From a virus, in the IMG/VR virus record IMGVR_UViG_3300010391_000188, positions 1 through 43,386 of that record: 43,386 bases of DNA; one strand, written 5' to 3'. The stretch's first letter is position 1, and each line of letters begins with the position of its first letter. The position numbers and the translations under genes were made by a program. The notes below the pieces were generated by a model, which saw only the letters and a list, made by a program, of their open reading frames with translations, did no database searches and was not told where the DNA came from. Below are positions 2,386-21,262 of this stretch, in pieces.

Positions 2386-2513
2386 ATGTCTCCCCTAAGC
2401 CTATTTTATCTTTACCATGAACTTCGGGCCTAACCTGTCCTTTAGGCCAGTATGGCTATTATTAGAAGCTATTAATGCTAGATAATCTTTTTTGGCTCGT
2501 ATTTTGCAATTCA
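2386..2513. other. Intergenic stretch with a 7-bp hairpin
   Basis: No gene is seen. GGCCTAA (2427-2433) and TTAGGCC (2442-2448) form a perfect stem with an 8-base loop. Neither strand has a good T run after it, so it is a weak terminator candidate for the repressor transcript or a small regulatory hairpin. Confidence 0.35.
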
Positions 2514-2969
2514 TTATTGGTTTTTTTTACCTGGCCGAAATGCGCCCTCAGTGCCGGTAGCTTTAAATTCTTCGGGCTGTTCTACGGGCATTAATCCGCC
2601 TATCATCTGTTCTATAAGAAGTTGTTGGGCTTTAGGGAGTACCATTAATTTAGCGGCTACACGGTAGGCGGCGTCTTCTTGGGTCAGTTGCTTGCCCTCT
2701 ATAGTGCAACCCTGGTCAGACGATTTTTCGAATACTTTTTTATCAAGGAAATCGGCGGTCGATACGCCAAGTTCGTCTCCTATACCAATAGCAACATCTA
2801 TGCCGAAGTTCCCCATAGAGCCAGATTCTACCTTGCTCATATAGTTCTCACTTTTACCAAGCGCGTTGTTTAAATCCTGCTGACGCTTGCCGACCCTCTT
2901 CCTGATAGATTGGATTCTCGAACCTATCTCTCTAAGGTCAATTTCTATATTTGGGAGCTTTTCTTTCAT
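2514..2969 (-). CDS. XRE-family repressor (CI-like regulator)
   Basis: The 151-residue product has an N-terminal helix-turn-helix of the XRE/Cro-CI type at about residues 12-75 (GSRIQSIRKRVGKRQQDLNN, then SENYMSKVESG). The C-terminal half carries no LexA/CI self-cleavage Ser-Lys signature that I can see, so induction may not work by RecA-stimulated cleavage. It is divergent from the early genes and faces an intergenic region with clear palindromes (2992-3057), the usual place for the lysogeny repressor. The tail is short, basic and Gly-rich. Confidence 0.8.
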   Translation of the reverse strand: MKEKLPNIEIDLREIGSRIQSIRKRVGKRQQDLNNALGKSENYMSKVESGSMGNFGIDVAIGIGDELGVSTADFLDKKVFEKSSDQGCTIEGKQLTQEDAAYRVAAKLMVLPKAQQLLIEQMIGGLMPVEQPEEFKATGTEGAFRPGKKNQ

Positions 2970-2981
2970 ATAACACTATTT

Positions 2982-3008
2982 TGTATACGAACTTGACGTA
3001 TATGTCAA
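2982..3008 (-). promoter_or_regulatory. Leftward promoter for the repressor (PRM-like)
   Basis: On the minus strand TTGACA lies at 3008-3003. A -10 TATACA is found at 2987-2982 with a 15-bp spacer, or TACAAA with a 17-bp spacer. The -35 box lies inside an 18-bp palindrome (2992-3009), so binding there would directly affect this promoter. Confidence 0.5.
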
Positions 3009-3009
3009 G
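2992..3009. promoter_or_regulatory. Palindromic operator candidate (CTTGAC / GTCAAG)
   Basis: CTTGAC at 2992-2997 is the exact inverted complement of GTCAAG at 3004-3009, separated by six bases. It overlaps the -35 element of the leftward promoter. This fits a dimeric HTH repressor binding its own control region. Confidence 0.5.
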
Positions 3010-3019
3010 CCTTTTTTTC

Positions 3020-3057
3020 TTATTCACACAATAAAGCATGTATAAAAGTGTGAATAA
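3020..3057. promoter_or_regulatory. Long-spaced inverted repeat, second operator candidate
   Basis: TTATTCACAC at 3020-3029 and GTGTGAATAA at 3048-3057 are a perfect 10-bp inverted repeat with 18 bases between. It differs in sequence from the 2992-3009 palindrome, so a second regulator, or two half-site pairs bound by one protein, is possible. It lies upstream of the rightward promoter at 3091-3119. Confidence 0.5.
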
Positions 3058-3090
3058 AGTATTTTCTATGCTTTTTAGTATTATTTTTTG

Positions 3091-3119
3091 TTGACACGCT
3101 ACAATATATGCAGTATAGT
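3091..3119 (+). promoter_or_regulatory. Rightward early promoter (PR-like)
   Basis: TTGACA at 3091-3096, a 17-bp spacer and TATAGT at 3114-3119 form a near-consensus sigma70 promoter. Transcription would start near 3126 and read into the HTH genes at 3168 and 3385. A possible 14-codon leader frame (ATG at 3142, stop at 3184-3186) overlaps the start of the first gene. Confidence 0.8.
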
Positions 3120-3167
3120 ATTAACTGTAAAAGGCAAGTTGATGAAAACTATTAAGCGAGGTATAAA

Positions 3168-3368
3168 TTGGACAAAGAATATTTGACCCCCAAAGATTTA
3201 TCAAATCTGTTCGGCATTAAAAAGCCAACCATCTACAAGCTCACAAAGGATATTCCCCATTATCAAATCGGAAACTCAATCCGTTACAAAAAAGAAGACG
3301 TTTCTAAATGGCTTGCAGAACAGAAGATTGAGCCCATTCCCGAACTCGACAAGAAGAAAGTATCCTAG
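3168..3368 (+). CDS. Excisionase-type HTH DNA-binding protein
   Basis: The 66-residue product matches the short MerR-like helix-turn-helix found in excisionases: YLTPKDLSNLFGIKKPTIYK, then a wing IGNSIRYKKEDVSKWLAEQK. This is the first gene after the rightward promoter, where Xis or Cro proteins usually sit. The start is TTG, chosen because GAGG lies 6-7 bases upstream and the HTH begins at once. It may direct excision at attP or regulate early transcription; both fit. Confidence 0.75.
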   Translation: MDKEYLTPKDLSNLFGIKKPTIYKLTKDIPHYQIGNSIRYKKEDVSKWLAEQKIEPIPELDKKKVS

Positions 3369-3384
3369 CACAGAGAGGTCAACG

Positions 3385-3630
3385 ATGGAAAGTCCATATT
3401 TCACTTTGGCGGAAGCGGCTGAGTACGGCAGATACCCTACACATGACGCACTTAGGCGCGATATGGAAAGGCGTCAATTAAAAAAGGGAATCCATTACTT
3501 CAACCTTGGCGGAAAACCCAAGGGTCCTATCAGATTTTATAAGGACAAATTCATTGCATGGCTGGAAGGCCGGGATACAGCCGCCGAGCCGGAAGCAATG
3601 GATTTTTCCAAGCAAGCGAACAGAGGGTAA
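3385..3630 (+). CDS. Second excisionase-like HTH protein
   Basis: The 81-residue product starts at ATG 3385 after AGAGAGG. It begins with an HTH-like segment (YFTLAEAAEYGRYPTHDALR) followed by a basic wing and RFYKDKFIAWLEGRD, the same fold pattern as the previous gene but more diverged. The two may be a Xis/Cro-like pair. A longer frame starting at 3313 overlaps the upstream gene and lacks a ribosome site, so it was not used. Confidence 0.6.
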   Translation: MESPYFTLAEAAEYGRYPTHDALRRDMERRQLKKGIHYFNLGGKPKGPIRFYKDKFIAWLEGRDTAAEPEAMDFSKQANRG

Positions 3631-4270: not shown

Positions 4271-4430
4271 CCCCCACGTCGCAAAGCGTTATGAGCTTCT
4301 GGACAAGAAGCGAAAGTCCCGCATAGATATTCTCCTATTTTTTGCCCTGATTAATTTATTCACCGGCGCTCTCGTTTGGCTATTCAGCACCACATTAACA
4401 GCAATCGTACCATATTTCATAAAGCACTAA
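4263..4430 (+). CDS. Small single-pass membrane protein
   Basis: The 55-residue product starts at TTG 4263, preceded by GGGAGG. A basic N-terminal 20 residues (YELLDKKRKSRID) is followed by a hydrophobic helix from ILLFFALINLF to about residue 50. The basic side would stay in the cytoplasm. Function unknown. Confidence 0.55.
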   Translation: MYNPHVAKRYELLDKKRKSRIDILLFFALINLFTGALVWLFSTTLTAIVPYFIKH

Positions 4431-4439
4431 GGAGGCCAA

Positions 4440-4673
4440 ATGCAGTTTTTCACCTGTAAAGAATGTGGAAACAGTCAGGCTCATCCCATCCCGTCCGTCG
4501 AACTTTCGGACGCGTATAAATCACAGGCCTTATTTGTTAGGCAACTCGTAGCCATAGTAGAGGCGAAAAAAGAAGATGAATACGTCAAAATGATTGATTT
4601 GATAGAGGAAGCCAATTTTTTTATTGAAGAGCATGATAACGCAGATAAGGCTTGCTCGGCGGCGGTGAGATAG
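4440..4673 (+). CDS. Small hypothetical protein with one CxxC
   Basis: The 77-residue product starts after AAGGAGG. It begins FFTCKECGNSQ, a single CxxC knuckle, followed by a helical acidic region and a late Cys. It is not recognised. The 73 bases that follow (4674-4746) hold no gene. Confidence 0.55.
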   Translation: MQFFTCKECGNSQAHPIPSVELSDAYKSQALFVRQLVAIVEAKKEDEYVKMIDLIEEANFFIEEHDNADKACSAAVR

Positions 4674-4746
4674 CCGTAGGACGGTGATTAACCACACGCG
4701 CACCATCTACGTTGCCGCCGAGCACTTAATTAACAAGGAGGGAAGT

Positions 4747-4854
4747 ATGGAAGAGATAGAAAGACTCGAAATAGACTTAGAGGAAGAAGTCCACGACTTG
4801 GCGCATATAAAAAGCGTGAAGTCAACCAGGGCGAAGGGGGAACGCGATGAGTGA
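4747..4854 (+). CDS. 35-residue acidic/helical peptide
   Basis: ATG at 4747 follows AAGGAGGG. The N-terminal half is rich in Glu and Leu (MEEIERLEIDLEEEV) and probably one amphipathic helix; the C-terminal half is basic. It overlaps the start of the Gp157-like gene by 8 bases, so it is likely translated and coupled. Unknown function. Confidence 0.5.
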   Translation: MEEIERLEIDLEEEVHDLAHIKSVKSTRAKGERDE

Positions 4855-5392
4855 AAAATTACCAAGCCTTTACCAGCTATCAGCCGACTATTCCGCCGCA
4901 GTGGAAATACTCTCGGATATGGACGCGGACGAGCAGACGGTGAAGGACACGCTTGAAGGCTTATCGGGACTGCTGGAAGTCAAGGCCGCAAACGTATTCA
5001 TGTTCATGCGCGATCTTGAAGGCCGCGCCAAAGCTTTCAGGGCGGAAGAGGCGCGGCTTGCCATATGCGGCGAGTTTATGGAGAAGCGGGCGGGGCAGAT
5101 AAAGGACTATCTCAAGAACGCTATGAAGGGCGCAGGGATAAAGAAAATAGAAGCCCCGAAAGATTACCCGGTATTCCGATACCTTGCCGTCAGGGACAAT
5201 CCCCCCGCCGTGGAGATAGACAACGAGGATGATGTGCCGGCTATATTTTTCCCGCCGCCGCCCCCGCCGAAGGAACCGGAACTAAAGCCGGACAAGAAAC
5301 GGCTCAAGGCGGCAATAGAGGCCGCTACCGAAAATGGAGGTTACATACCAGGAGCGCATATTACACAGGGTACACGATTAGAAATCAAATAG
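4847..5392 (+). CDS. Gp157-family phage protein
   Basis: The 181-residue product matches the siphovirus Gp157 family: N-terminal YQLSADYSAAVEILSDMDAD, a central helix (KAANVFMFMRDLEGRAKAFR), and EARLAICGEFMEKRAGQIKD followed by an amphipathic helix. In other phages this gene lies next to recombination genes, as here. An unusual polyproline run with Lys/Glu (residues about 136-150) sits before the last, basic segment. The molecular role of the family is unsettled. Confidence 0.8.
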   Translation: MSEKLPSLYQLSADYSAAVEILSDMDADEQTVKDTLEGLSGLLEVKAANVFMFMRDLEGRAKAFRAEEARLAICGEFMEKRAGQIKDYLKNAMKGAGIKKIEAPKDYPVFRYLAVRDNPPAVEIDNEDDVPAIFFPPPPPPKEPELKPDKKRLKAAIEAATENGGYIPGAHITQGTRLEIK

Positions 5393-5400
5393 GGGGATTT

Positions 5401-6363
5401 ATGGAGAACACAGTTTTGTCATTAAGAAACAACAATGAAATAACGGAGATTCCGCCGCTCACTTCGGCGCAGATACGGCAACAAGTCAACCTGATTCAAT
5501 CGGTTATGTCTGAGGTGATGAAAAAGGACGAACACTACGGCGTGATACCGGGTACGGGCGGCAAGCCGTCCCTTTTAAAACCCGGCGCGGAAAAACTGAT
5601 AATGACTTTTCGTCTCGTGCCGGATGTAGAGATCGAAGTTGTTGATATGCAGGGCGGACACCGCGAATATCGAATCAAAGTCAAGCTTTACGCTCAGAAC
5701 GGCAATTTTTTGGGTTCTGGTGTCGGCTCGTGTTCAACGATGGAGGGCAAGTACCGTTTCAGAACCGGGCCCGTTGAAATCACGGACAAGCCCGTGCCAC
5801 AGGAATATTGGACGAATCGAGACATATCGCTGATAGGTGGTAAAGGGTTCTCGACAAAAAAGAACGATACTGGAAAGTGGATGATAGCCATAGCGGGTGA
5901 AAAGGTCGAGCATGACAACCCCGCTGACTATTACAACACTTGCCTTAAGATGGCAAAGAAAAGGGCTCTGGTCGATGCTTGTCTTACCGTAACCGCCGCC
6001 TCTGATATCTTCACTCAGGATGTAGAGGAAATGGATTTTAACGAGAGGGGCGCGGCAGGTTTCGATGCGGCCACAGCCGAGAAAGACGCCTTACAGGACG
6101 AAACATACTGGGCGGCGGGGACGAGAAGTGCACAGCATGAAGGCAAAACATCAAAGACCATTACCGAAGGCCAAAGGAAGATGTTGTGGGCGAAGATGAA
6201 GGCAAAGAAGATGCCAGAAGATGAGTTTTACGGACTTCTACTTGAGCATGGGGCCGTGGAAGGCGAGGACAAAGTAAGCGTTGATAGCCTTCCGGCAACG
6301 AGCATGAATGCCGTCCTAAAGGACCTGGAAGCATGGATGCCGGAAGAAATACCGTTTGGCTGA
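5401..6363 (+). CDS. Putative single-strand annealing / recombination protein
   Basis: The 320-residue product contains MKKDEHYGVIPGTGGKPSLL followed by KPGAEKL (about residues 40-66), VGSCSTMEGKYRFR, a variable loop and NTCLKMAKKRALVDACLTVT near residues 180-200. This arrangement is that of a widespread phage family found next to Gp157 and, from context, thought to be a RecT/Erf/Rad52-like annealing protein. The last 80 residues (TITEGQRKMLWAKM onward) form a separate small helical domain. I place it in recombination on family pattern and context; the fold was not tested. Confidence 0.65.
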   Translation: MENTVLSLRNNNEITEIPPLTSAQIRQQVNLIQSVMSEVMKKDEHYGVIPGTGGKPSLLKPGAEKLIMTFRLVPDVEIEVVDMQGGHREYRIKVKLYAQNGNFLGSGVGSCSTMEGKYRFRTGPVEITDKPVPQEYWTNRDISLIGGKGFSTKKNDTGKWMIAIAGEKVEHDNPADYYNTCLKMAKKRALVDACLTVTAASDIFTQDVEEMDFNERGAAGFDAATAEKDALQDETYWAAGTRSAQHEGKTSKTITEGQRKMLWAKMKAKKMPEDEFYGLLLEHGAVEGEDKVSVDSLPATSMNAVLKDLEAWMPEEIPFG

Positions 6364-7116: not shown

Positions 7117-7983
7117 ATTAATCAGGATATTCGGCTAGATATTCATTTCCATACGAACCTTAAAACCAAGAGGCTTATTAGGAAAGTTGGTATTGAGGGC
7201 GTTTGGGCATTACAGCGTCTTTGGTGCTATGCCGCAGAGTACAAGCCTACCGGAATATTAAGAGGCATGACCGATGCGGAAATAGCTTCTGAATCCGGTT
7301 GGGATGGTGAGCCATCCGATTTTGTAACCGCTCTATCCTCTCCTGATACCCGCTTCATTGACATAAAAAGTGGCGTGAAAGTTTTACATAACTGGAAAAA
7401 AAGACAACCATGGGTTGTGGGTGCAGAAAAGCGAAGTAAGGTTGCAACCGATAACGCGACTAAGGGTTGGCGCAAAAGAAAACAAGGGGTTAAGCCGACT
7501 GCCAACGGCATGCCAGTTGCATGCCAGTTGCATGCCAACGGCAATGCTCCTTCTCCTTCTCCTTCTCCTTCTCCTTCTCCTTCTCCTTCTCCTTCTCCTT
7601 CTCCAAAAGATATAAAAACAAGAGGTAAAGATATTGTCGGGCTTTTGCCCGACGTTGACACTCATGCCCGGATAATTGACCACTTCAACAAGCAGTCGGG
7701 TTCCAAGTTCCAGATGGCCGATTCGACTATTCGGTTGATTAACGGCAGGCTCAGAGAAGGATTCACGGAAGACGACTTAAAGGCGGTTATAGATTCCAAA
7801 TGCCGGGAATGGAAGAACGACCCCAATATGCGGCAATATCTCAGGCCAGTAACTCTTTTTGCCCCTTCTAAATTTGAAGGTTACTTGCAAGTTGCCTTAA
7901 AGCATGTCCCTGGTATGGAAAAATACTCGCCCAATACTCAAAAGACCCTTGAGGCGTTATCGAGGTGGAACCCGAATGGATAA
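7117..7983 (+). CDS. Replication initiator-like protein with an ATT start
   Basis: The first ATG is at 7267, but the frame is open upstream and encodes NQDIRLDIHFHTNLKTKRLI then VGIEGVWALQRLWCYAAE, the conserved N-terminus of phage replisome-organiser (lambda-O-like) proteins. The only start with a ribosome site is ATT at 7117, six bases after AAAGGAGG. Residues about 1-90 form the winged-helix-like DNA-binding domain, followed by a flexible Pro-Ser linker and a C-terminal domain with FNKQSGSKF, RLREGFTEDDLK and YLRPVTLF. Four iterons lie in the linker coding region. It overlaps the next gene by 8 bases. Confidence 0.75.
   Translation: MNQDIRLDIHFHTNLKTKRLIRKVGIEGVWALQRLWCYAAEYKPTGILRGMTDAEIASESGWDGEPSDFVTALSSPDTRFIDIKSGVKVLHNWKKRQPWVVGAEKRSKVATDNATKGWRKRKQGVKPTANGMPVACQLHANGNAPSPSPSPSPSPSPSPSPSPKDIKTRGKDIVGLLPDVDTHARIIDHFNKQSGSKFQMADSTIRLINGRLREGFTEDDLKAVIDSKCREWKNDPNMRQYLRPVTLFAPSKFEGYLQVALKHVPGMEKYSPNTQKTLEALSRWNPNG
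7497..7540. repeat. Four tandem 11-bp iterons, candidate replication origin
   Basis: The units are GACTGCCAACG, GCATGCCAGTT, GCATGCCAGTT and GCATGCCAACG, joined without gaps. Eleven is not a multiple of three, so the repeats are not kept by protein repetition; they suggest DNA-level selection. Lambda-type phages carry their initiator-binding iterons inside the initiator gene, as here. Confidence 0.65.
7549..7602. repeat. Hexanucleotide microsatellite (CCTTCT) x9
   Basis: Nine perfect copies encode a (Pro-Ser)9 linker. One strand is all pyrimidine, so the tract can slip during replication and can form unusual DNA structures. Copy number changes keep the frame and would only alter linker length. 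It directly follows the iterons and precedes an AT-rich stretch. Confidence 0.9.
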
Positions 7984-16909: not shown

Positions 16910-16934
16910 CATCCTGATGCGTTTGTAGTAAATA
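16906..16934 (+). promoter_or_regulatory. Sigma70-type promoter before the structured region
   Basis: TTGACA (16906-16911), exactly 17 bp, then TAAATA (16929-16934). The predicted start is near 16941. No coding gene begins for more than 450 bases, so its first product is untranslated RNA. Confidence 0.75.
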
Positions 16935-16940
16935 AATAGT

Positions 16941-17210
16941 ATATTTGTTTTATCAGCCTGTTTAGCGCAAAAAATAAGACGATGAGTCTTAGGTCCAAAA
17001 AGACCCACTAACCAGGACAACCAAATATACCGAGTATCATGCTTAGGTCGGCCCCGTGTGGCCCCTGGTTAGGCATGGTAGATTTACAGGGCGGTTATAG
17101 CCAGGCTATCACGGTAAAGGGCTTGCCATAGCAATATGGCGAGGGTATGATGAAATCTGCTGAGGGAGCGGCCTAAGAGCCATAAATCTTAGGATAGTCC
17201 CTCCGAAAGC
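16941..17210 (+). ncRNA. Highly structured non-coding RNA or late leader
   Basis: This non-coding stretch can form seven or more helices: TAAGAC/GTCTTA (16975-16980, 16986-16991); CTAACCAGG/CCTGGTTAG (17008-17016, 17064-17072); GTAGATTT/AAATCTGC (17078-17085, 17153-17160), enclosing ATAG/CTAT and CTTGCCAT/ATGGCGAG (17122-17129, 17136-17143); and GAGGG/CCCTC (17162-17166, 17199-17203), enclosing CCTAAG/CTTAGG (17172-17177, 17188-17193). CTTAGG occurs two more times (16988 and 17042), so alternative pairings exist. It follows a strong promoter. It matches no RNA class I know. It may be a trans-acting RNA, a packaging RNA or an antitermination leader. Confidence 0.6.
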
Positions 17211-17246
17211 TAAAATGTATTACTTTTTTTTTGTTTCTTTAAATTC

Positions 17247-17261
17247 TGGCACAGTTCTTGA
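17247..17261 (+). promoter_or_regulatory. Sigma54-like (-24/-12) promoter element
   Basis: TGGCACAGTTCTTGA matches the -24/-12 consensus TGGCACN5TTGC at every fixed position except the last (A for C), with correct spacing between the GG and the -12 element. A T-rich tract (17223-17240) lies upstream. It is placed before the TerS-like gene. Confidence 0.5.
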
Positions 17262-17399: not shown

Positions 17400-17819
17400 A
17401 TGGCACAAGGTAAAGCAGCCCAAATAGATTGGGAACTCGTTGATAAACAACTCAAAGGAAACAAAACTCAGCGCGCCATTGCTAAATCATTAAACATCTC
17501 AGCACCAACCTTTTCCCTGCTTCTAAAGAAACGAAACCAAGAATTAAATGCCGTACCTATGATTCAAAATAGGGAAGCATTAGATAACTATAAGAAAAAT
17601 AGAGCAGATATTTATGCAGAGACGGGAAGGAGACTGTTAGAAGGCGTTACTGAAGATAAAATAAAAAAGGCCAGGGTAGGCGAGCTTGTCCTTGCACATG
17701 CCCAAATATCCGACAAAGAACGCCTTGAAAGAGGCCAGTCAACAGCCAATATCAACAACCTAGTGGCAATCCTTGATAGGATAGATGCCAAAGGTATACC
17801 CCCAGAGAGCAGATTTTAG
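17400..17819 (+). CDS. Terminase small subunit-like HTH protein
   Basis: The 139-residue product has an N-terminal helix-turn-helix (KGNKTQRAIAKSLNISAPTF), a helical middle and ends with ELVLAHAQISDKERLERGQS then TANINNLVAIL, a pattern found in phage terminase small subunits and related packaging regulators. It lies 1.8 kb before the large subunit, farther than usual, with an origin-like region and small genes between. The ribosome site is weak. It would recognise the packaging site; a transcription regulator is the alternative. Confidence 0.5.
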   Translation: MAQGKAAQIDWELVDKQLKGNKTQRAIAKSLNISAPTFSLLLKKRNQELNAVPMIQNREALDNYKKNRADIYAETGRRLLEGVTEDKIKKARVGELVLAHAQISDKERLERGQSTANINNLVAILDRIDAKGIPPESRF

Positions 17820-18023
17820 TGGATAACTCTAAATTATCCACAGCCTACAGCCCTTATTTTTATCCACAGCCTTAGACCCTAGCCAAATTCCTTAATAGAA
17901 TCAACATCATGCCTATAATATTTATTATGTAAACTCTTAGGTTATGTTGTTGTAATCATTGGACAATAAGTGTGCCACTCCTTATTAGGAATACAGGTTA
18001 TCCACAAACCTAGGTTATCCACA
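17818..18023. other. Cluster of five DnaA boxes, origin-like region
   Basis: TTATCCACA, the consensus DnaA-binding 9-mer, occurs perfectly at 17834-17842, 17860-17868, 17998-18006 and 18015-18023, all on the plus strand. A fifth, 8/9 box lies on the minus strand at 17818-17826. The last two flank the palindrome AACCTAGGTT (18007-18016). The stretch between (17880-17960) is AT-rich. This density is typical of DnaA-dependent origins or of DnaA-controlled promoters. Confidence 0.8.
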
Positions 18024-18249: not shown

Positions 18250-18278
18250 TTGACAATTAGAATCGCTTTTGTTATCAA
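18250..18278 (+). promoter_or_regulatory. Sigma70-type promoter for 18335-18934
   Basis: TTGACA (18250-18255), 17 bp, TATCAA (18273-18278). It precedes three small coupled genes whose transcript would meet the terminator at 18990-19025. Confidence 0.6.
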
Positions 18279-18334: not shown

Positions 18335-18532
18335 TTGGGGAATAAGAACTTCGTGGATAATGAGAAGGGTCGTACTGCGGTATTAGTGCCAGCGGGGACG
18401 ACCCTTTTTGATTGTAATGCAACTTTATCTGTCATAGTAGATTCCATAATTGCCAATAAATTTAAGAGTATTCTTGCAACTGGCGGTCCTGATGACGAGC
18501 CGAACAGGCCGTGGGACGAGGTGTCGGTATGA
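18335..18532 (+). CDS. Hypothetical protein, 65 residues
   Basis: TTG start with GAGAGG seven bases upstream. The product has a central hydrophobic helix-like stretch (ATLSVIVDSIIANKFKSIL) and an acidic end. It is first in a three-gene unit behind the promoter at 18250. Not recognised. Confidence 0.5.
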   Translation: MGNKNFVDNEKGRTAVLVPAGTTLFDCNATLSVIVDSIIANKFKSILATGGPDDEPNRPWDEVSV

Positions 18533-18780
18533 GACCAGAAGCCGCTGAAGGAACAGTGAACCGCTATATTGAAATTATTTTTCCTGACATGATGGGTTTT
18601 GTGGAAAACATGGGGCATGGTTCCATCAATTTAGTTTTTCAGGATGGCCGACTTGTGATGGTAGACAGCACAAACAAGCGTAAAATACCGCCGGTCAATG
18701 CCACCATCAACCACAGTGAGAAGCAAGCCCCCTTGAGATGCGAGCCGGAAGCAAAAATGGCCGCACGTAATTTAAGATAA
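18529..18780 (+). CDS. Hypothetical protein, 83 residues
   Basis: ATG 18529 overlaps the previous stop (ATGA). The product contains IEIIFPDMMGFVENMGHGSI then NLVFQDGRLVMVDSTNKRKI, a beta-rich pattern resembling small phage proteins with a short strand-turn-strand core (DUF2292-like). Function unknown. Confidence 0.5.
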   Translation: MRPEAAEGTVNRYIEIIFPDMMGFVENMGHGSINLVFQDGRLVMVDSTNKRKIPPVNATINHSEKQAPLRCEPEAKMAARNLR

Positions 18781-19181: not shown

Positions 19182-19622
19182 ATGAAAACAATATTAGCCT
19201 TTTTAGCAATAACCGTTCTCCTGACGGCGGATCTTGCGTTTGGCGGTTCCGGCAACTTCGGCGCCCAGATGGAAGCAAAGACCACCATATTCACAAATCA
19301 GAGTTCCAACGTGACTCCGGCCAACGCAACCCCGATAGATGCCCGGGGTTGGCCGAACCGCACAATATCTTTTGTTGGGCCTGGTGGACGCACCGGATTT
19401 GCCAATGCTTCGACCGCCTGCACTATATGGGGTTCGACCGACTATAACGGCGTAACTGGGAACTGGACCTTTGTCGTTACCAAGACACTCAACACCTCAA
19501 GCACCTACGCGGACATCCCAAGCGCATGGCAGTGGATAAAAGTCAGCAATGCGATAACGGGCGGCGTTCCGAATGCGCGAACAAGCGTCAATGCGACTCT
19601 TTACCAAAACACTTACAGGTAA
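19182..19622 (+). CDS. Secreted-type protein with signal peptide, near terminase
   Basis: The 146-residue product begins with a classic signal peptide (KTILAFLAITVLLTADLAFG) followed by a beta-rich domain of Thr, Ser, Asn and Gly with two aromatic strands (WGSTDYNGVTGNWTFVVTKT; SAWQWIKVSNAITGG). It looks like a small beta-sandwich. It sits two bases before the terminase gene, an odd location for an exported protein. It could be a virion decoration or an exported factor; unknown. Confidence 0.6.
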   Translation: MKTILAFLAITVLLTADLAFGGSGNFGAQMEAKTTIFTNQSSNVTPANATPIDARGWPNRTISFVGPGGRTGFANASTACTIWGSTDYNGVTGNWTFVVTKTLNTSSTYADIPSAWQWIKVSNAITGGVPNARTSVNATLYQNTYR

Positions 19623-19624
19623 TA

Positions 19625-21262
19625 ATGGCCCGTCACAAAGACATAGTCCCGGTTCAGGACCCGCAGGAGCGCGTAGCATCCCTGTTCGAATCCTGGAAGT
19701 GGAACCCCCGCAAATTTGTGGAGGAGGCTATTCTTGCGCCTTTCAACCAGGCTAACGGCACGAACTACCGTCTGAGCAACCAGCAGGCGGAAGCTTACGA
19801 AGAACTCCGCAAACTTGTTACTGCGAAAGTGCAGCTTGAGACGGCGATAGGAAAACTTATTACCGAGAAGTTCCCGACTAGCGGCCCGAACCCAACTCCG
19901 GAACAGATGCAACAGTTGACCGACGAGGGCATGTCTACTCTTTCCGAAAAGGAACAGGAGTATGCCCGGAAGATAGGCATTTCCATACAGGCCGGGAAGG
20001 GTACAGGCAAGGACGCTTTCGCGGCCGGCGCGATTATCTGGTTTCAACTTTTCTTCAAGGGCGCTTTTATACCCTGCATAGCCCCATCCGCGCACCAACT
20101 TGAAGATATTATTTGGGGCGAGATAAAAAAATGGCTGTCCACCAGTCTTGTTTCACACCTGATTGTTTGGCAGGCGCAAAAGATATTCACGAAAGAGGGC
20201 GAGGGAAAGGACTGGAAGGTTATACCTCGCACGGCGAACCCGAAGGCGGACCTTACTACCCAGGCGGCGACGCTCTCTGGACTTCATGCCCGGTACATGA
20301 TGGTTCTATTCGACGAGGCAGACGCCATCCCGGAACCGGTCTATACCGCGCTCGATTCCACACTCACGAATATAGTCAATTTTGTACTTCTGATATACAA
20401 CCCGACCCGCAATACCGGGTACGCCATAGAGACTCAGAAGTCAAACCGCTGGATAAAACTGCATCAGAACGCCGAAGAAAGCGAACTTGTATCCCGCGAA
20501 TCCATACAGGTCAAGAAAGATAGGTGCAACGGCGATACGAACGCGAACTATTACCGCGTATACGTCAAAGGTCTGCCGCCGATTGCCGAGGATGGCGCCC
20601 TTATCCCGTGGGACTGGATTCAGGATGCGATAGAGCGCGAGATCAAAGTAGCGGACGAAGAACAGCGCACAGCGGGCCTCGATGTGGGCGGCGGCGGCGA
20701 CCCAAGCGTTATCTGCTATGGGCGTGGTGACTTGGTAGAAGGTTTCTTCAAGAACAGTTCCCCAAGTTCCATAGAAGTGGGACTTTGGGGTGCGCAGAAA
20801 ATGGACGACATGGATATTGTCGCAAGCGCCGTTGACATAATCGGACTTGGAAACGGGACATATAACGAAATGCGTCTTCTTGGAAAGCGCGTTTATCCTT
20901 TCGATGCCAGAGGCACGGCCCGGAACAAGGACCGCTTTTTTAATCGTCGCGCCGAAGTATGCTGGACGGCCCGCGAGAAGTTCCAGAACGGGACGATCAG
21001 TATCCCCAATAATCCTGAATTTATAGCCGAACTCAGCGTTTTAAAGTACGACGAAGAATCCGGCAAGGTAAAGATAGGCGGCAAGAAACAGATACGTCGT
21101 GACCTTGGCGGAAGTTCAAGCGATTACTTTGATGCCTTCATGCAAAGACTGTCTCTAAACAACGGTGCGTTTAGGAAACCTAAAGAGGACAGATACGAAA
21201 AGGCGTACAACAGGCAGCATGAACGCCGTGACGATTCGGCCTATGCCTGGATGGGAGTTTAA
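19625..21262 (+). CDS. terL: Terminase large subunit
   Basis: The 545-residue packaging motor has Walker A GKGTGKD (residues 124-130), Walker B MMVLFDEAD (225-233), coupling region NPTRNTG (about 259-265) and the RNase-H-like nuclease start GLDVGGGGDPS (Asp353). Further acidic nuclease residues are expected downstream and are plausible at DARGT and SSSDYFDA. ATG 19625 follows the previous stop by two bases and begins at the first conserved region; a longer frame from 19526 overlaps the secreted gene. It ends overlapping the portal start. Confidence 0.92.
   Translation: MARHKDIVPVQDPQERVASLFESWKWNPRKFVEEAILAPFNQANGTNYRLSNQQAEAYEELRKLVTAKVQLETAIGKLITEKFPTSGPNPTPEQMQQLTDEGMSTLSEKEQEYARKIGISIQAGKGTGKDAFAAGAIIWFQLFFKGAFIPCIAPSAHQLEDIIWGEIKKWLSTSLVSHLIVWQAQKIFTKEGEGKDWKVIPRTANPKADLTTQAATLSGLHARYMMVLFDEADAIPEPVYTALDSTLTNIVNFVLLIYNPTRNTGYAIETQKSNRWIKLHQNAEESELVSRESIQVKKDRCNGDTNANYYRVYVKGLPPIAEDGALIPWDWIQDAIEREIKVADEEQRTAGLDVGGGGDPSVICYGRGDLVEGFFKNSSPSSIEVGLWGAQKMDDMDIVASAVDIIGLGNGTYNEMRLLGKRVYPFDARGTARNKDRFFNRRAEVCWTAREKFQNGTISIPNNPEFIAELSVLKYDEESGKVKIGGKKQIRRDLGGSSSDYFDAFMQRLSLNNGAFRKPKEDRYEKAYNRQHERRDDSAYAWMGV

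Follow-up and report, generated by a model that had tools for sequence, protein, structure and literature searches.

DnaA boxes around a putative Xer recombination site beside the terminase genes of a phage

In phage P1, a loxP site near pac lets Cre circularise redundant DNA. In the Xer system, XerD is activated at dif by the FtsK-gamma domain. Control of XerD normally lies with FtsK, but plasmid cer sites rely on PepA/ArgR in its place (PMC5357621). Other sources deal with phage FtsK proteins (PMC3706429), with plasmid prophages that have XerCD-like recombinases of their own (PMC8026635), and with a phage origin predicted from DnaA boxes (PMC11512268). In the literature covered, dif use is described for filamentous, microvirus-like and tailless phages, and the full-text literature, subscription papers and most preprints aside, yielded no report of DnaA boxes flanking dif at a phage terminase locus. 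An arrangement of this kind, built around a dif-like site, is outlined here for a 43,386-base virus record (the window, meaning the whole stretch of DNA analysed).

Boxes and a dif-like site downstream of terS

The left end of the window holds its own tyrosine integrase (268-1494) and a repressor-like gene, followed by a replication module, and no repeats were found at the ends of the record. The gene to the left of the boxes (17400..17819, + strand, 139 aa) had been called TerS-like, a call that phmmer supports: ORFs located ahead of TerL in relatives match its C-terminal part, with a shared DKERLERGQST-type motif, and the gene itself matched no Pfam or PHROG family. From terS onward the order is a 515-base gap, small ORFs, the terminase large subunit (TerL; 19526..21262, + strand), a P22-type portal and a capsid gene. 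TerL falls in PHROG 2 (E 1.3e-29) and is distantly P1 PacB-like (tblastn to pacB, E 4e-20); from such homology, the phage would be expected to package by the headful. A possible sigma-70 promoter (TTGACA-17-TATCAA; 18250..18278, + strand), read from the sequence, stands ahead of the small-ORF/TerL operon, in which a small DUF2292 protein is encoded at 18511-18780.

Other features were noted around terS. A 321-nt non-coding stretch ahead of the gene (16915-17235) has a better predicted fold than 99 of 100 shuffled versions (z -2.77) and ends in a U run; it has no Rfam match and is a possible structured RNA. A sigma-54-like TGGCAC-N5-TTG is found near terS in the window (17247-17261) and in two relatives (L005, about 905-919; L206, about 520-534), and its count inside the window alone is not above chance. 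The 12-mer ATCCCCGTTTCC, shared by the terS-terL gaps of the window and L005, is likewise within chance.

The sequence-only reading had placed four perfect DnaA boxes and one 8/9 box within 206 bp 3' of terS, and all five lie where it put them. Perfect copies of TTATCCACA are found on the + strand at 17834..17842, 17860..17868, 17998..18006 and 18015..18023; the 8/9 box (TTATCCACT, 17818-17826, - strand) is inverted relative to these and overlaps the terS stop codon. Also real are the AT-rich centre, a stretch of 30% GC between the inner boxes (17880-17995), and the palindrome common to the last two boxes, a 10-bp sequence between them (AACCTAGGTT, 18007-18016, + strand). Chance clustering, judged very unlikely in that reading, is indeed so: a first-order model expects 0.30 perfect copies of the box per window against the 4 observed, all of the copies in the record belong to the cluster, and, a simple repeat at 7.5 kb aside, no stretch of 206 bp contains four copies of any other 9-mer. 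When one mismatch is allowed, 19 box matches are found in the window against 8.17 expected, and the scattered 8/9 boxes outside the cluster are close to background. As judged from its sequence, the cluster is well supported as a genuine target of host DnaA.

The AT-rich centre contains a feature that had been overlooked, a dif-like Xer site at 17908..17935 (+ strand) consisting of a XerC arm, a 6-bp centre and a XerD arm (CATGCCTATAA-TATTTA-TTATGTAAACT; full 28-mer, CATGCCTATAATATTTATTATGTAAACT). Two dif matrices were used, a broad one built from 49 published sites (taken from PMC2731167 and PMC3025954) and a narrow one built from five dif sites. With the 49-site matrix the site scores 28.0 bits, which is within the range of the published sites (10.3-32.3 bits, leave-one-out) and in keeping with a 28-bp dif consensus; in 200 simulated windows the best score has a median of 13.4 bits and never exceeds 20.3, and the runner-up in the window reaches only 11.1 bits. 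With the five-site matrix it scores 24.8 bits, a value reached by 0 of 60 simulated windows (best, 20.0). The pattern ATAAN6TTATGT has a single match in the record, as expected of dif, which is single-copy in its replicon, and 23 of the 28 positions are identical to B. subtilis dif, including the entire XerD arm. The site begins 89 bp past the last base of terS, and the perfect boxes are centred at -83.5, -57.5, +80.5 and +97.5 bp from its centre. DnaA boxes thus flank a near-canonical dif-like site, a putative substrate for Xer recombination.

Replication origin or Xer site

The cluster had first been read as a DnaA-dependent origin or a DnaA-regulated switch. The part of this claim that concerns a host-DnaA target stands, by sequence; the origin part is opposed by the GC skew, by an initiator gene located elsewhere and by the dif-like centre. 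At an origin, flanking DnaA would melt the AT-rich centre, and the resemblance to dif would be accidental or reflect a co-located resolution site. In favour of this, the four perfect boxes surround a centre of 30% GC, the pairing of boxes with an AT-rich element being what a DnaA origin should have, and a replication-initiator gene adjoins similar box-dif modules in other contigs (the L369/L370 family and L381). Cumulative GC skew, which had been proposed as a check, climbs steeply to about 17 kb and is then nearly flat, so that at the boxes there is flattening without the reversal expected of an origin. Nor would generic AT-richness explain how well the centre matches the 28-bp dif matrix. 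A lambda-O/DnaD-type (Phg_2220_C) initiator gene is found instead at 7.3-8.0 kb, 10 kb from the boxes, and it contains the iterons that had been noted at 7.5 kb, which are genuine 11-bp repeats (7500-7548). By analogy with lambda O, this gene and its repeats would be a better origin candidate than the boxes. An origin at the boxes is a weaker rival to the Xer-site reading, and we consider it unlikely. More broadly, positions 7500-7600 within the initiator gene carry four 11-bp repeats and nine 6-bp repeats, which encode Ser-Pro.

The box-dif pair recurs beside terminase genes

Relatives of the window's TerL were collected by searching with a two-sequence alignment, which gave 80 viral loci and one Nitrospirae MAG contig. 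Used without alignment, TerL brought up a single viral relative and none among bacterial genomes; TerS alone gave no relative among viral contigs and, in named phages, a match no better than chance. Some of the loci are near-duplicates (L130/L131 and L196/L198). Of the 24 dif-like sites of at least 15 bits (49-site matrix) in the 81 loci, 15 fall in the 145 kb that lie no more than 2.5 kb upstream of TerL, and 9 in the remaining 711 kb. Among the 15, L191 and L194 look like AT-rich chance matches; among the 9, four (L130, L131, L137, L164) follow, by no more than about 80 bp, a TerS homologue situated farther upstream. In the 2.6 kb ahead of TerL, none of the 58 relatives examined carries more than one perfect box, and L160 alone carries one. 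From these box and dif scans, the terS-linked dif-like site is more widely shared, and the box cluster is particular to the window phage among the TerL relatives seen. In other Nitrospirota genomes, three regions with TerL relatives also lack the combined module.

Sixteen records of named phages close to the families under study were compared as well, and none of the compared stretches contains a perfect DnaA box. Phage C72C1 has a 22.4-bit dif-like site between terS and terL, weaker sites follow terL in PM1 (19.7 bits), D6E (16.7) and MEP301 (15.9), and in MW202496 a 16.0-bit site lies about 2.5 kb ahead of terL; the remaining named records hold no dif-like site of at least 14 bits. Among the TerL relatives, Sinorhizobium phage phiM5 (L328) has annotated direct terminal repeats at 1-357, directly upstream of TerL. 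In L165, the TerL ORF is apparently split by an intein-like insertion (about 2440-3440), and the TerS helix-turn-helix (548-982, + strand) is weakly like the DnaA C-terminal domain (Bac_DnaA_C, E 3.3e-4, below cut-off).

The repeats could also be pac repeats bound by TerS that merely equal the DnaA consensus. Repeat clusters of other sequences do exceed simulation in L126 (0/100) and, less clearly, in L160 (12/100), but most of the 17 regions compared have no repeat excess, and TerS-binding repeats failed as a general explanation in most relatives. With TTATCCACA exactly identical to the DnaA consensus, and the same 9-mer recurring with dif in phages that have other TerS types, this explanation is very improbable.

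Beyond the TerL relatives, viral contigs were scanned for two perfect boxes 5-35 bp apart, which gave at least 120 stretches (1.05 Mb). Among the stretches listed, all 14 dif-like matches of at least 14 bits by the narrow matrix lie within 84 bp of a box, with bases within 150 bp of a box making up 5.4% of the 1.05 Mb; the broad matrix at 15 bits gives 41 matches, 15 within 100 bp of a box and 26 beyond 350 bp. Five of the listed stretches have boxes on both sides of the dif-like site (L057, L071, L083, L090, L107). PHROG places TerL beside the module in L057, L014, L083, L084, L090 and L062, and TerS in L057 and L014; in L071 a TerS-like ORF on the other strand was called by eye. Over 105-129 bp, the L084 module shares about 75% identity with the modules of L011 and L031.

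Scans for a box near a dif arm returned 36 contigs with the window-like layout and at least 120 for each of two other layouts. Among the 240 loci listed, box-to-arm gaps peak at 6 bp (71), 22 bp (23) and 67-69 bp (103), boxes stand on both sides within 300 bp in 85, and the dif-like 28-mers have a median of 15.6 bits (49-site matrix), below the 28.0 of the window. These preferred spacings bear on a further alternative, in which DnaA would switch transcription of the terminase/late operon and the dif-like site would be a passenger. The sigma-70-like promoter and the terminase operon do come after the boxes, but the boxes precede the promoter-like site by about 230-430 bp and the spacings speak against a passenger; a switch is quite improbable.

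The pair of DnaA boxes and dif-like site recurs beside terminase genes. A search with 14 TerL queries found a TerL homologue in 177 of the 240 listed loci, in 159 no more than 1.5 kb from the dif centre, against 94.3 for random positions drawn from these loci. These counts overstate independence, because clustering at 60% identity places the 240 listed loci in 17 nucleotide families, the largest with 174 members; clustering at 90% gives 123 groups, of which 89 have TerL and 76 have it within 1.5 kb. As controls, box pairs without the module are near TerL in 30 of 108 listed stretches (20.7 at random) and dif-only loci in 6 of 120 (7.8 at random). By the same 14 queries, the window-like layout is near TerL in 5 of 36 (2.9 at random). 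PHROG also places TerL near the module in L370, L374, L379, L383, L389 and, weakly, L398. Acetyltransferase and tail genes adjoin the module instead of terminase in L368 and L384, and some modules adjoin an initiator, so the link between module and terminase is strong but not universal. This recurrence beside DNA-packaging genes suggests that phages borrow host machinery for genome processing. When the dif pattern alone was scanned for, the matches were mostly due to chance, and a box lay within 400 bp of only 5 of 120 sites. Two contigs end inside the module, but their 127-base terminal overlap looks like an assembler k-mer and is unusable for placing physical ends. The 130-kb record from which L045 comes may be partly bacterial.

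One module locus offers a clue to mechanism. L383 encodes a TerS (4374-5558, + strand) with Pfam FtsK_gamma (E 2.2e-29, over cut-off) between the terminase HTH and Terminase_2, and a dif-like site of 27.3 bits and a DnaA box 61 bp away both lie between its terS and terL. FtsK_gamma was found in 2 of 41 virus or phage records, the other being an 88-residue ORF in L380, about 15 kb from its module; none was found in the window.

Integrases matter to another possibility, an IMEX-type attachment site through which the phage would enter and leave the host chromosomal dif by host XerCD. Filamentous phages do so, according to PMC2731167 and PMC5357621, and a tyrosine integrase match is present in only 3 of the 41 module or dif-site records, window included, although many of the 41 are fragments. 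The window, however, has its own tyrosine integrase, and in G146 about 480 kb separate the TerL-relative prophage from the sole match to ATAAN6TTATGT, the presumed dif. Integration at dif is therefore improbable for this phage.

A candidate host-served site at the packaging start

The explanation that we favour, with a probability of roughly 55%, is an Xer circularisation or multimer-resolution site beside the packaging start, with DnaA as regulator or accessory factor. The locus would be a compound site for host factors directly downstream of terS, with a XerC/XerD site whose centre is 57 to 98 bp from the perfect boxes. Host XerCD would recombine two copies of the site, found either in the redundant ends of an injected headful or in replicated multimers, and so circularise or monomerise the phage genome. 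A headful started at pac would include the dif-like site in its redundancy if pac lies within terS. DnaA on the two flanks would license or shape recombination, or couple it to replication status, probably in the manner of PepA/ArgR-type accessory proteins at cer; it is plausible that phages use DnaA, at preferred spacings, in place of FtsK or PepA/ArgR. Counted against this explanation is the absence of box clusters in TerL relatives, even in those that keep the dif-like site. So are the dif-only matches, few of which have a box nearby, the Nitrospirota regions that lack the module, and the scarcity of FtsK_gamma. A broader proposal, that many unrelated tailed phages carry a dif cassette at the packaging start that is served by host XerCD with DnaA as accessory, and that some TerS proteins with FtsK-gamma switch on XerD independently of cell division, is put forward tentatively.

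If true, three host cell-cycle systems (DnaA, XerCD and FtsK-gamma) would be tied to phage packaging loci, phages without Cre would gain a route to genome circularisation or resolution, and DnaA would become a candidate Xer accessory factor. It would also mean that DnaA-box clusters in phages are not automatically origins.

Each of the known systems resembles the locus in part. Like DnaA-box origins (oriC and P1 oriR), it has clustered perfect boxes and an AT-rich stretch, but it has no adjacent initiator gene and its AT-rich stretch is dif-like. With bacterial dif/XerCD it shares the 28-bp layout, the 6-bp centre and the XerD arm of B. subtilis dif, but it is carried by a phage, beside terS, and is flanked by DnaA boxes. 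The IMEX phages CTXphi, VGJphi and TLCphi also carry a dif-like site, but these integrate at host dif, whereas the window phage combines an integrase with a terminase-linked site. P1 loxP-Cre at pacAB offers a recombination site near packaging genes and a related TerL, and the window site is likewise next to terminase genes; no Cre-like gene was seen at the window site, where host XerCD is presumed to act, and the window's tyrosine recombinase is integrase-like and 16 kb away. Finally, ColE1 cer and pSC101 psi have an Xer core with flanking sites for accessory proteins, as in the window, with PepA/ArgR or ArcA sites in the plasmids and DnaA boxes in the phage.
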